Assembly: GCA_017307505.1 (NCBI GenBank)
Contig: JAFKEE010000057.1
Coordinates: 1 to 64,000 of the forward strand
Source: Acidobacteriota bacterium
GTDB lineage: Bacteria > Acidobacteriota > Terriglobia > Bryobacterales > Bryobacteraceae
DNA: 64,000 nt
Direction: 5' to 3'
Within the stretch, counting starts at the first letter, position 1; every line of letters starts with the position of its first letter. A model generated the notes under the pieces. It was not told where the DNA came from. It made no database searches and worked only from the letters and a program-made list of their open reading frames with translations. The translations under genes were made by a program, and so were the position numbers. This document shows positions 474-5,546 of this stretch, in pieces.

Positions 474-830
474 CTACGCCATGGCGTGCGCCATCCGCTC
501 ACAGGAAGCAGCGCAGCGCTGGCAAATCTCCGCGCACCGCTTCATCAACTCGTCGGACTTGCCGATGCGCAGGCACGTCTCCGCGCAGGCCCGGCAGATC
601 CTGGCGCACACTCCGCACGTCTCCGCATGCCGTTCCGACGCGCGCAGCAGGAAGTTCGCGCTCGTCTGGCACATCTCGGCGCAATCCTGGATCAGGGTCT
701 GGTAGCCGGCCGAGGCGTGTTCGCCCCCCAGGGTCAGACAATGCGCGGCGGTTTCCACACAGATCGCGTGGCAGTCGATGCAGTTCGAACTGCACTCTCT
801 AATCTCGGCGGTCATCTTCTTCTCGTGCAT
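474..830 (-). CDS. Four-helix-bundle copper-binding protein (DUF326, Csp-like)
   Basis: The 118-residue product has 16 cysteines in repeated CxxxC and CxxC spacings (for example ECSSNC, CVETAAHC, CGVCARIC, CRACAETC, CQRCAASC), the hallmark of the DUF326/Csp copper-storage family. These cytosolic or exported four-helix bundles line their core with Cys thiolates and bind many Cu(I) ions. No signal peptide is visible, so a cytosolic Csp3-like role is most likely. The longest open frame reaches 1028, but the family start is the ATG at 828-830, preceded by AGAGGG on the minus strand. It is divergent from the phosphorylase gene, with about 200 bp of shared upstream DNA. Confidence 0.88.
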   Translation of the reverse strand: MHEKKMTAEIRECSSNCIDCHAICVETAAHCLTLGGEHASAGYQTLIQDCAEMCQTSANFLLRASERHAETCGVCARICRACAETCLRIGKSDELMKRCAEICQRCAASCERMAHAMA

Positions 831-1038
831 GGGTCCCTCTTCTGGATGGAATTTTGGGAATGCCCGGAGAAAACTCTTCACCCGGCGCATCCGGAGAGCC
901 GCAATACCGGCGCTCATCCGGTAGACCCTCCGGACCGCCCGCATGTTTCGCAGCCCGTCTTCTTTCTCGAAGCACGGCGCCGTTCCACACTGCGCGGCAC
1001 CGCCCTTCCGCAAGACTTTCGCTAGCATGGAAGCAGGG

Positions 1039-1866
1039 ATGTCAGCTCAGCAACAGCCGCCGCTTCTCCGGCACGACACAGAAGCGCCTCCGGCCTTGAC
1101 TGCCAGTGGTTTGATGGATTCTGTCAGGGAACTTCGTGGTTCCGGACCCTTCCGGCCGCCGGAAATCTGCGTGCTGGAGTTCGATGGCGATCTGACAGAC
1201 TGGCTGGTCGCGCAGGGGCGGGCCGTCCAACTCTCCGGCTGGCCGTGCTTCCACACGAAGATGTATGTCGTGGACTGCGAAGGCGTGCCCGTAGGAATCG
1301 TCGACCGCACCATCGGCGGCCCCTATGCGGTCCTGGTGGCCGAGCAGCTCCAGGCCGCCGGCGCCAGGCTGATCGTCGGACTCACCTCGGCCGGCCGGGT
1401 TTCGTCCGAGCTGCCGCTGCCGTGCCTCGTGGTCGCCACCTCAGCCATCCGCGACGAAGGCACCTCCTTCCACTACCTGCCCCCAGGCGAATCGGTGGAC
1501 GCCCCCGCGCAGATCGCCGGCCACTTCGCCGAAGCCTTGCGCGCCACGCGCTGGCCGGTGCGCACCGGCTGTGTCTGGACCACCGATGCCCCCTACCGCG
1601 AAACCGAAGGCGCCATTCTCTTCTGGCGCTCACGCGGCGTTCTGGCGGTGGAGATGCAAGCCGCCTCGCTATTCGCCTTCGGAGCCGCGCGGCAGGCCGC
1701 GGTTGCGGTGGTGGCCCGCGTCAGCAACGCCATCGACCACACGGGCGAACAGTTCGACACCGGCACGGAAGAGGACGGCTGGCAGGCACTGCTGGCGATT
1801 GCCAGGGCCGGCGCCGCTTATCTGGACGCCGGAGCGGCTTTACCGGGAAGGGAACTCCATGATTGA
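1039..1866 (+). CDS. Nucleoside phosphorylase family protein
   Basis: A 275-residue protein of the purine/uridine phosphorylase (PNP_UDP_1) superfamily, which cleaves nucleosides with phosphate to a base and ribose-1-phosphate. Visible features are the central VGLTSAG segment, a PYRET stretch, and AVEMQAASLFAF, matching the conserved E-M-E/Q-A nucleoside-binding element. A substrate cannot be assigned. The frame is open from 943, but the ATG at 1039 has GGAAG five bases upstream; ATG 1027 is the alternative. Its last 8 bp overlap the start of the methyltransferase gene, so the two are probably translationally coupled. A role in recycling SAH or thio-nucleosides from that methyltransferase is only inference. 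Confidence 0.75.
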   Translation: MSAQQQPPLLRHDTEAPPALTASGLMDSVRELRGSGPFRPPEICVLEFDGDLTDWLVAQGRAVQLSGWPCFHTKMYVVDCEGVPVGIVDRTIGGPYAVLVAEQLQAAGARLIVGLTSAGRVSSELPLPCLVVATSAIRDEGTSFHYLPPGESVDAPAQIAGHFAEALRATRWPVRTGCVWTTDAPYRETEGAILFWRSRGVLAVEMQAASLFAFGAARQAAVAVVARVSNAIDHTGEQFDTGTEEDGWQALLAIARAGAAYLDAGAALPGRELHD

Positions 1867-2593
1867 AGGCCCCGCTACCTTGCGCGCCAGCGTGCACGGT
1901 GCCTATTCCGCGGCAGCCTTGGATCCCGCCGCGAAACATCCGTTCCCCGTGGGCCGCGACTTTGCCGAAAGTGTCGGCTATCCCACCGAACTGCTCAGCC
2001 GGCTCCCGAACTCCGCGGCCGCCGCATTTGCCGGAGTATCCAACGTGGCGGTCACCGCGCCCGTCGAGGAGGGGATGACGATTCTGGACATCGGCTGCGG
2101 TGCCGGTCTGGACAGCCTCATTGCGGGCCGCCGCGTCGGGGCCGGCCGGGTCATCGGCATCGACTTCAGCGCGGCCATGCTGGCCCGCGCGCTGGAGGCA
2201 GCCAGGGACCACGGCGCCGCGAACGTCCACTTCGTGCAAGCTTCCGCGGAATCGCTGCCATGCCCCGACGCCTCGGTGGATCTGGCGCTCGTCAATGGCA
2301 TCTTCAATCTCAACCCCTTCCGGGCCGCGATCTTTCACGAACTGGCGCGGGTCGTGAAGCCCGGAGGCCGCGTAGCCGGCGCGGAGTTGATCGTCGGCGA
2401 CAACCTGCCTGAGGTTCTGCGGCAAGGCAGCGCGAACTGGTTCTCGTGAGTTGCGGGCGCGAAGGATGCAGTTGCATTCCTGGACGAATTCCGGCACGCC
2501 GGATTCCGGACGCCCCGCGTCCTCCGCACGTTGCGCAACGCCCGGACCAGGCATCCGGCCGTCTTGGCAGCGGAGTTTCTGGCGCAACGCTGA
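1859..2593 (+). CDS. ArsM-like SAM-dependent methyltransferase, candidate selenoprotein (TGA = Sec at residue 197)
   Basis: Class I methyltransferase with the SAM-binding motif LDIGCGAGLDS (about residues 77-87), a GRVIGIDFS acidic strand and a late VVKPGGRV motif. The N-terminal PVGRDFAESVGYP and FAGVSN segments belong to the short ArsM-like family. Conventional calling stops at TGA 2447-2449 after NWFS. The same frame then continues VAGAKD...AFLDEFRHAGF...RNARTRHPAVLAAEFLAQR to TGA 2591-2593, which is exactly the expected C-terminal part. The TGA falls where relatives have the Cys of the (W)F-x-C-[IV]-x-G-A motif, equivalent as I recall to an arsenic-binding Cys of ArsM. A hairpin follows at 2463-2481. 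The full product would be 244 residues. Selenocysteine insertion is inferred; a nonsense mutation or sequencing error is the alternative. Confidence 0.72.
2463..2481 (+). promoter_or_regulatory. Candidate bacterial SECIS element for the methyltransferase TGA
   Basis: AGGATGC (2463-2469) pairs with GCATTCCT (2474-2481) in a 7-bp stem with one bulged T. The tetraloop AGTT carries G as its second base. Counting the T of TGA as 1, the loop G and U are 25 and 26; in E. coli fdhF the SelB-contacting G and U are 23 and 24. Placement, bulge and loop G match the bacterial SECIS pattern. It lies inside the coding sequence, as bacterial elements do. Confidence 0.6.
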
Positions 2594-3201: not shown

Positions 3202-4974
3202 ATGCCTTCTCGAATCACAGGCTATAGAGTGTTCATCGCAAGTCCCGGCGGGCTAATGCAGGAGAGGAATGCCTTTCGAAGGGTCATCCTTGAGGCAAAT
3301 GACGATGCTGTTTTTCGGCGGGCCTTATTCATCCCCGTAGGCTGGGAGGACACGCTAGGGGGTGTGGGACGCCCGCAGGGGCTCATCAATCAAGATCTTC
3401 GGGAATGTGATTACTTTGTTCTGTTGCTCTGGGATAGATGGGGGACTCCTTCCGGTCGCGAAGGTGAGTCCGGATATACTTCCGGCACTGAGGAAGAATT
3501 CCGGATGGCATTGCAATGTTTCAACGACTCGACACATCCACTGCGACAGTTAGTAGTATTCTTTAAGGCTGTTTCTCCGGACAAACTAAGCGATCCTGGT
3601 CCGCAATTGCAACGAGTTTTGGAGTTCAAACGCGAATTGGAAGCAAGCAAGGGGCTCCTCTTTCATACTTTTGACGAGATTGATGCATTCGAGGCGTTGT
3701 TGAGGAGGCATATTGCGAAGTGGCTGCGTGACCATGACCACGAGGAATGTGGCCAGACTGAGCTTCCTCCGTCCACGACCCGGACCCTGCTGGCTAGCAT
3801 TGATGGGGTGGCCACACCGAAGGCAAGCAATTCAAAAGCATCGGGAGAACTACAGGAATTTCTTGATGATGCCGAACGATTGGCCGACCAGGGGTTCCTC
3901 ACCGACGCTGAAGCAATTTATGCACGGTGTATTACAAAGTACCGTGACCCCGATGCCTTCAATAGATACGGAGTATTTCTACTTCGAAGCCATAGACTCC
4001 AACAGGCTGAGGTTATGTTTCAGCAGGTGGAGGCCCTGGCCGAAACCAGTGGGGAAAAGTGGTTGTCGACGGCTCTGATAAATCGAGGTTTACTGGCGAG
4101 AATTAAGCTAGACCTCGCATCTGCTGAATCCTTCTACTTTCGCGCGCTCGAGATCGATCGCAAGCTGGGACGAGAGAGAGGGATTGCGGCAGCACTCTGG
4201 AATCTTGGGGCTGTTGCGCAGTCTCGAGGCGACCTTAAACTAGCCAAAGACTACCATCTCGAGGCATTGGAAGTTGCAGAACGTGCACAATGGCTCAAAG
4301 GTGTGGCAACACAACACTGCCATCTCGGACTCCTCTACCTCAAGGAAGGTGATCTTGTCAGAGCTGAATCGACACTCAGTAAAGCACTCGATTGTGAACA
4401 GCGGCTTGGGCGTCTTGAAGGGGTGGCCGACGCGTGCAGCGGGCTCGGGCTGGTCTTTCAGTCCTTAGGCGAGTTGGAAAAGTCCGAGGCGATGCATAAG
4501 AGGGCACTGATGCTCAACGAGCAACTCGGACGACTAGCTGCGGTTGGAGATCAGTACGCTGATCTCGGTATTGTCTATCTCAAACGAGGTGCTCTGGCGG
4601 AGGCTGAACTTGCGCTGAGAAAAGCAATGGAGGTCAGCGAGAGATCAGGTCGTGATAGTGCAATTGCCAATGTTCATAACTGTCTGGGCTTGGTTCTAAA
4701 GGAGAAGGGTGACTTGGCTGCCGCTGAAAAGATGCATTTCACGGCACTCCGCATATATGAGCGGCTCGGCTTGCGTGACTACCAAGCAGACCAGCACAGT
4801 CATTTGGGGAGCATCCTGGAGGCCAAAGGCCGGATCAGCGACGCCCTGGATTCTTGGCGAACCGCGGCAAAATTGTATAAAGATGTTCACCAGAACAGCA
4901 AGGCTGAACTTCTTGACTGTTGGGCGATCGCGCTAACCGGGCACGGACTTACTTCGACGGAAGCGGCGAGTTGA
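3202..4974 (+). CDS. DUF4062-like N-terminal domain fused to TPR repeats
   Basis: 590 residues. Residues 1-180 (YRVFIASPGGLMQERNAF, an acidic DLRECDYFVLLLWDRWGTP segment and a GTEEEF turn) resemble DUF4062 and related Rossmann-like effector domains, which are commonly fused to NTPase or repeat modules. From about residue 215 to the end there are at least seven 40-residue tetratricopeptide repeats (for example ALWNLGAVAQSRGDLKLAKDY), as in the sensor ends of NB-ARC/TPR proteins. No NTPase domain or signal peptide is seen. Base composition is clearly lower in GC than the neighbours and the flanks are gene-poor, which suggests acquisition by transfer. A defence or signalling role is possible but unproven. 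The start ATG has only a weak Shine-Dalgarno sequence. Confidence 0.8.
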   Translation: MPSRITGYRVFIASPGGLMQERNAFRRVILEANDDAVFRRALFIPVGWEDTLGGVGRPQGLINQDLRECDYFVLLLWDRWGTPSGREGESGYTSGTEEEFRMALQCFNDSTHPLRQLVVFFKAVSPDKLSDPGPQLQRVLEFKRELEASKGLLFHTFDEIDAFEALLRRHIAKWLRDHDHEECGQTELPPSTTRTLLASIDGVATPKASNSKASGELQEFLDDAERLADQGFLTDAEAIYARCITKYRDPDAFNRYGVFLLRSHRLQQAEVMFQQVEALAETSGEKWLSTALINRGLLARIKLDLASAESFYFRALEIDRKLGRERGIAAALWNLGAVAQSRGDLKLAKDYHLEALEVAERAQWLKGVATQHCHLGLLYLKEGDLVRAESTLSKALDCEQRLGRLEGVADACSGLGLVFQSLGELEKSEAMHKRALMLNEQLGRLAAVGDQYADLGIVYLKRGALAEAELALRKAMEVSERSGRDSAIANVHNCLGLVLKEKGDLAAAEKMHFTALRIYERLGLRDYQADQHSHLGSILEAKGRISDALDSWRTAAKLYKDVHQNSKAELLDCWAIALTGHGLTSTEAAS

Positions 4975-5546
4975 GCGGCAATTCCTACCAAGCGAAATGA
5001 TTGAAGAGGTTTTACGCCCCAGGTGTTGCAGAGAATCGCGGACGCTTGTGAAACTCCTGGTTGAGTTGGGCGCGGCTTGCGATAGGTACCAGGACGAGGC
5101 GATGGGGAACTTGCAACTAAAGCGGGTTCCTTCCTATTCAGCAACGTCCGAAACTGCAATGACGTACGTCGCCTCAACTGTCTCCTCCTTCACCGGAGCC
5201 ATGCTTCGGAGTACGCGTTCATTTGACCGACAGGGCCACTCGGAAGGGGCGCCAGCCATCTTATACCTCCTAATCCCACACGGGCTCATTGGCCAGCTCC
5301 GGGTGGGATCCAGATACGGACCCCGAATCGCGGCATCGAACGTCCCTCACTCTCGGCATCTGAATGCCTCGCCCATGATGAAACATCGGTCAGTCAAAGC
5401 GCGCATCCCAGGCGAAACCTCGTTTGTGTATTCCGGTAATCACCTTCACGCACACCGGGGCCACACACGCTGCAAGACCCGTATCAACGCCCCTATAGGC
5501 AACAGATCTTGTGACGCCCAACCGCGCGTCCCTACGTCAAAAGGCA
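4975..5546. other. Intergenic stretch without a supported gene
   Basis: Several overlapping frames exist on both strands, but none has a family-like translation or a good ribosome binding site. I see no tRNA, inverted repeat or transposase remnant. Confidence 0.5.

Follow-up and report, generated by a model that had tools for sequence, protein, structure and literature searches.

The gene at positions 1859–2593 of the window, a 64,000-nucleotide stretch of contig JAFKEE010000057.1 from an acidobacterial soil bacterium, almost certainly encodes a selenoprotein, judging from comparison of its sequence with those of its relatives, and the product is probably a little-known selenium-dependent methyltransferase. 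Our preferred reading, to which we give a probability of roughly three in four, is an enzyme with the ArsM fold in which an in-frame UGA would be decoded as selenocysteine (Sec) and the resulting single selenolate would hold a soft substrate while SAM donates the methyl group. As aligned, Sec 197 appears to be the only ligand position of the ArsM arsenic site that has been retained. The relevant features of the window are as follows.

943–1866, + strand: upstream gene (PF01048, nucleoside phosphorylase superfamily), sharing 8 nt with the start of the methyltransferase gene
1859–2593, + strand: ArsM-like Sec methyltransferase gene, ATG at 1859, 244 residues plus stop
2447–2449, + strand: in-frame UGA, predicted Sec at residue 197, from the TGA in public loci and the Sec machinery of the genome
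2464–2480, + strand: SECIS-like hairpin, loop 2470–2473 with G at 2471, assigned on comparative support
2591–2593, + strand: terminal stop, also TGA, from reading of the frame

An earlier note, made from the letters of the DNA, had described one complete ArsM-like protein split by a single in-frame TGA, with its second half intact. Both points were confirmed, as the frame contains no stop besides TGA 2447–2449 and the terminal TGA and yields 244 residues. With the TGA taken as Sec, the product matched the Pfam methyltransferase families PF13847, PF13649 and PF08241, and its four top NCBIfam matches were all arsenite methyltransferase-like, three of them being selenoprotein fusions. The window protein exceeded the cut-off of no NCBIfam family among the best 25 of 66 matching families, and for three further members (L083, L117 and L131) no cut-off was reached among the families listed. 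Since TGA reads as a stop, and since these four tested members fall under the listed cut-offs, copies of this gene are probably annotated as truncated genes. General reassignment of TGA was considered and rejected: the terminal stop of the window gene, being TGA as well, argues against it, and in 18 of 66 rows the first stop met past the Sec codon is likewise TGA.

The stand-alone subfamily that includes the window gene is referred to here as group A. A protein search of 151 genomes, including that of the window, returned 19 full-length group A genes, each with one TGA that falls on the same residue in the aligned genes, together with two extra matches: G027, a fragment that has the TGA, and G037, a decayed copy in which two TAG codons accompany a single TGA. 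A scan of named genomes yielded 63 public group A loci, which come partly from the same genomes, so that the two counts are not additive. The codon at the Sec position is TGA in 62 of the 63 loci, the remaining one (L142) being too frame-broken to read, and with a scan pattern that permitted Cys at this position none of the 62 readable loci had it. A sequencing error at TGA 2447 is excluded by the 62 other loci with the same codon. By phylum label the 63 loci comprise 33 Acidobacteriota, 8 Chloroflexota, 5 Myxococcota, 4 Nitrospirota, 3 Planctomycetota, 2 Methylomirabilota, 2 Thermodesulfobacteriota, 2 unplaced, and one each of Rokuibacteriota, Pseudomonadota, Actinomycetota and Gemmatimonadota (11 labels in all), any single one of which may be wrong because most of the records are metagenome-assembled. 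In one Chloroflexi record (L117:2995–4536) a group A gene and a group B gene (see below) for Sec methyltransferases stand in tandem, and both have a TGA of their own.

Identity to the window protein, averaged over 33 relatives, is 0.57 before Sec and 0.59 after it. Differences per codon position 1, 2 and 3 amount to 0.29, 0.23 and 0.63 after the UGA versus 0.74, 0.75 and 0.71 past the terminal stop, with L124, L133 and L138 left out of the downstream and post-stop counts and L143 out of the upstream count. Codon-wise conservation runs beyond the TGA and stops at the terminal stop. The homologs, to which the earlier note had looked for a decision, have thus kept the TGA and an intact C-terminus, save for a few broken copies; frame damage other than the TGA was seen in L124, L133, L142 and L143. 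Scattered broken copies of this kind, and the failure of the window hairpin by itself to fold better than shuffled sequences, count in favor of a genuine stop at the TGA, with the gene being either a pseudogene or the source of a truncated protein. We consider this highly improbable in view of the same TGA with conserved coding sequence past it in dozens of loci, the Sec machinery present in the genome, and a segment beyond the TGA that would complete the modeled fold.

The hairpin reported in the earlier note as lying 20 bases after the TGA, with a loop G and a bulged T, was upheld as to its existence and its loop G, and the extra T lies on the 3' side, but the stem begins after 14 bases past the TGA, the loop G sits at base 22 by the same count, and the hairpin is weak when taken alone. 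Folded singly against dinucleotide shuffles, the window hairpin gave z-scores of 0.32, 0.07 and 0.26 in segments of 54, 41 and 81 nt and −1.02 in a segment of 94 nt, which is no better than shuffles. Single-sequence folding was dropped as SECIS evidence for lack of significance, and comparative tests were used in its place. Against synonymous-codon shuffles, uncorrected for relatedness of the sequences, the hairpin segment gave z = −3.07 for 20 group A sequences (1 of 400 shuffles as low) and z = −7.19 for 7 group B sequences (0 of 400), and control segments gave −1.13 to +1.28 (−1.11 to +1.28 for the six group A controls, with 200 shuffles each). All 66 unique sequences have G at base 25, counted from the U of UGA; as this base opens a codon, protein constraint may contribute.

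Stem pairs were counted in gapless rows, with L143 excluded, L142 never included and one row that fits neither stem type set aside. Where the stem contains a Gly codon (48 sequences), any one of the seven pairs is formed in 37 to 48 sequences, and where it contains an Ala codon (17 sequences), any one pair is formed in 14 to 17. In this Ala type, pairing between bases 21 and 30 is seen in 15 of the 17 sequences, as GC, AT, TA, GT or CG, a count reached in 0 of 20,000 permutations; with Watson-Crick pairs only, the count is 14 of 17 and is reached in 1 of 20,000, both figures being uncorrected for relatedness. The covariance check proposed earlier accordingly came out in favor of the hairpin, in that stem positions covary and the element folds better than synonymous-codon shuffles across group A. 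As far as aligned sequences can tell, the hairpin is conserved with compensatory changes in its stem, and the two features of a SECIS element, a hairpin soon after the UGA and a G in the apical loop, are established by comparison and not by the window alone.

All four of the genes for Sec synthesis and insertion whose presence the earlier note had proposed as a check were found in the genome of the window (9.39 Mb, 75 contigs).

selB: contig C56, position 329306 (357 bits)
tRNA-Sec (selC), anticodon UCA: contig C67, position 250427 (70.9 bits; also called by ARAGORN)
selA: contig C67, position 270650 (494 bits)
selD: contig C3, position 161903 (carries one in-frame TGA, motif G-U-ASKL)

The TGA of selD is itself followed by a hairpin with a GGU loop, the first G of which lies 21 nt on, compared with 22 nt in the window gene. 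A SelB-like match near the window (C47:82843) was judged, by context only, to be an ordinary elongation factor, as it lies beside tRNA-Tyr and tRNA-Thr. Within the class selB occurs in 129 of 151 genomes, and being so common its presence was rejected as evidence there; among 17 genomes of relatives that carry the gene in this set, no selB was detected in 3, all three being in 500 to 610 contigs. A second search covered 50 of the 63 loci, 12 being left out as their genomes were already in the 151-genome selB count and L138 as it shares a genome with L129; L084 and L085 repeat genomes of the 151-genome set. Of these 50 gene-bearing genomes, 45 contain a selB scoring above the cut-off (19 of 21 from Acidobacteriota, 26 of 29 from elsewhere) and 5 lack one, compared with selB in 2 of 14 control genomes.

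As a separate observation, a probable acidobacterium carries a 94-nt tRNA with a GCA (Cys) anticodon (L011/L189; G000:C49, about 269440–269533, minus strand), which scores 46.2 bits against a tRNA-Sec cut-off of 47; an ordinary 75-nt tRNA-Cys (L190) lies elsewhere on the same contig. In the available part of PMC7609411, tRNA-Sec-like tRNA-Cys species are described from Firmicutes, Thermodesulfobacteria, Nitrospirae and Proteobacteria.

In a profile alignment with algal ArsM structures, Sec 197 lines up with Cys 224, Gly 147 with Cys 174 and Val 60 with Cys 72 (numbers counted off the printed profile alignment), three cysteines that we take to be the arsenic ligands of ArsM. The window protein therefore has Val, Gly and Sec in place of the three-cysteine site. 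This Val/Gly/Sec pattern is found in 63 of 66 group A rows, the remaining three being gapped there, and Cys rows are Cys/Cys/Cys in 27 of 27 cases. Group B, which is about 40% identical to the window protein, has Val, Ile or Met, then Gly or Ser, then Sec in 6 of 6 rows, and eight further Sec rows divide into five with Val/Gly/Sec and three with Thr/Gly/Sec, L167, L171 and L175 among them repeating group A genes. Three rows missed by the automatic count were read by eye, L153 as Thr/Gly/Sec, L177 as Cys/Cys/Cys and L152 (Chloroflexi) as Thr/Gly/Cys; relatives from Chelatococcus (L179) and Haloarcula (L180), likewise read by eye, are Val/Gly/Cys. The rows of group B, L152, Chelatococcus and Haloarcula indicate that loss of the Cys 72 and Cys 174 equivalents is a property of the wider branch, in which Sec is usual and not universal. 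The conserved Cys that the earlier note had assigned to relatives at the TGA residue is thus borne out by the alignment with Cys 224 of the more distant three-cysteine ArsM proteins, and in the wider family also by L152 beside group B, but not among the close relatives of group A, which have TGA.

An AlphaFold model computed from 34 sequences, with Sec entered as Cys, had a mean pLDDT of 92.4 and a pTM of 0.90. In this model the part after Sec forms a helix (residues 204–214) and two strands (220–225 and 235–243), so that the segment past Sec completes the fold as predicted. The ten best Foldseek matches among solved structures were ArsM entries, with human AS3MT at ranks 13 and 14, and Pfam, profile, predicted model and Foldseek agree in placing the window protein among ArsM-fold SAM-dependent methyltransferases. 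A quick maximum-likelihood tree of 86 rows was built with six short or broken rows left out and group A thinned to 42 rows, L167, L171 and L175 being kept as repeats of the L124, L089 and L128 genes. Group A lies on one side of a branch with support 100 and length 0.98, and three-cysteine ArsM and group B separate with support 97 and 89, respectively. The Cys copy L152 is nested within group B and, like L179 and L180, falls outside group A; the root is a midpoint, and the branch order is for this reason not settled.

The preferred reading would work as follows. The UGA would be read through as Sec by means of selA, selB, selC and selD and the SECIS-like hairpin just past it, SAM would occupy the usual Rossmann pocket, and Sec 197 would hold a soft substrate beside the SAM methyl group for transfer, this substrate perhaps being a chalcogen, or a metalloid already bearing thiol or methyl groups. 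Sec very probably sits in the active site; that the substrate is a soft element we regard as an even chance, and arsenite binding of the classical three-thiolate kind as very unlikely. The neighboring nucleosidase might conceivably help to clear S-adenosylhomocysteine. The true start of this upstream gene may be further downstream than 943, and ORFs resembling it are found close to the methyltransferase in 13 of 66 regions, every one from Acidobacteriota. No neighbor is common enough across the 66 regions to fix the substrate.

It is doubtful that the protein is a true arsenite methyltransferase in which Sec would strengthen one ligand and the other two would come from small thiols, glutathione for example. 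The equivalents of Cys 72 and Cys 174 are gone in group B and in each of the 63 group A rows that can be read at the two columns, the genome of the window already holds two Cys/Cys/Cys ArsM genes (L051 and L052), and the window protein scores 153.9 bits, under the curated cut-off of 263 for the arsenite methyltransferase family NF008823; on the other side stand the top profile and fold matches, which are ArsM, the ArsR-type regulators close to L083 and L131 (by appearance also L058 and L137), and the listing of a Sec arsenite methyltransferase as a known family in the available portions of surveys. A methyltransferase for selenium or another chalcogen, whose Sec would bind selenide or a relative such as perselenide and whose methylated product would be volatile or less toxic, is suggested by PhnD-type ABC transporter genes near L102, L124 and L140, the binding proteins of L140 and L124 passing the TIGR04553 'putative selenate' cut-off, by selB 2 kb from the group A gene in one genome (L072, the same as L123), and by the location of a group B Sec methyltransferase gene in L075 (G115:C197), next to selA, selB and tRNA-Sec. 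We judge it unlikely, as such links are few (3 of 66 regions, with the scanned L102 protein under the cut-off) and linkage to selB is expected for many selenoproteins.

Several other neighbors were noted. An OsmC-like gene adjoins single-Cys relatives, annotated as OsmC in Haloarcula (L180) and by appearance present in Chloroflexi L152, where a Pfam scan of one piece gave no match. Look-alike Cys-rich small proteins, for which Pfam scans gave no family, are encoded upstream of the methyltransferase in the window (474–1028, minus strand) and in L061 (about 4713–5126), of the same genus. The gene downstream in the window (3202–4974) has a DUF4062 domain and tetratricopeptide repeats and is apparently unrelated.

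Returning to an ArsM-fold enzyme with a single selenolate, the earlier proposal of a selenoprotein with changed metalloid chemistry is supported in its first half by the sel genes, the conserved TGA and the hairpin; the changed chemistry is something that we infer, and it gains in plausibility from the fact that two of the three arsenic ligands are gone. That this is a new, obligately Sec-dependent class, in which the three-cysteine site would have been given up and the selenolate would methylate another soft substrate, possibly selenium, we put forward as a tentative suggestion. Most characterized selenoproteins are redox enzymes. The occurrence of Sec at every readable group A copy, under 11 phylum labels and with no Cys form, suggests a chemistry that a thiol does less well, and from the disappearance of the other two arsenic ligands follows a prediction on the substrate that can be tested.

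ArsM-like proteins that contain Sec are not new: surveys include arsenite methyltransferase as a selenoprotein family. The earlier note knew of no characterized example; the available part of a 2026 review (PMC13188914) has, under 'Experimentally verified' and with reference to Fomenko 2007, an arsenite methyltransferase whose motif is UxxG, and lists three ArsM-type fusions, citing Haft and Tolstoy 2025. In the portions available, PMC9312934 places arsenite methyltransferase above its 'Predicted' heading, PMC2398784 reports 8 Sec arsenite methyltransferase sequences from ocean data, PMC12013277 lacks the word methyltransferase and PMC8318568 has no word beginning with arsen-. A search by title and abstract, with most subscription literature and the key 2025 literature outside its scope, found no description of an ArsM-like stand-alone branch without the two cysteines, a silence that is weak evidence of novelty.

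Compared with known systems, the window protein resembles the Sec arsenite methyltransferase (NF008823/PRK11873; listed protein WP_011987699.1) in being ArsM-like with one Sec in UxxG, here U-V-A-G, and is set apart from it by its score under the NF008823 cut-off. The fusions ArsM_AhpD_UU (NF041537), ArsM_DUF2284_UU (NF041536) and MTase_UXPK_star (NF047649) rank first or near the top among the matches to the methyltransferase part, at 179.8, 152.6 and 161.1 bits against cut-offs of 510, 575 and 460, respectively, but carry a second domain with a further Sec, whereas the window protein is stand-alone with one Sec. Classical ArsM and AS3MT (4fr0, 4kw7, 6cx6, 5evj and 8xt7) share the fold and the SAM site, and their Cys 224 aligns with Sec, but they keep Cys 72 and Cys 174 where the window protein has Val and Gly. 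The single-Cys relatives from Chelatococcus (L179), Haloarcula (L180) and Chloroflexi (L152) have equally lost Cys 72 and Cys 174, and differ in having Cys where the window protein has Sec and in their position outside group A.
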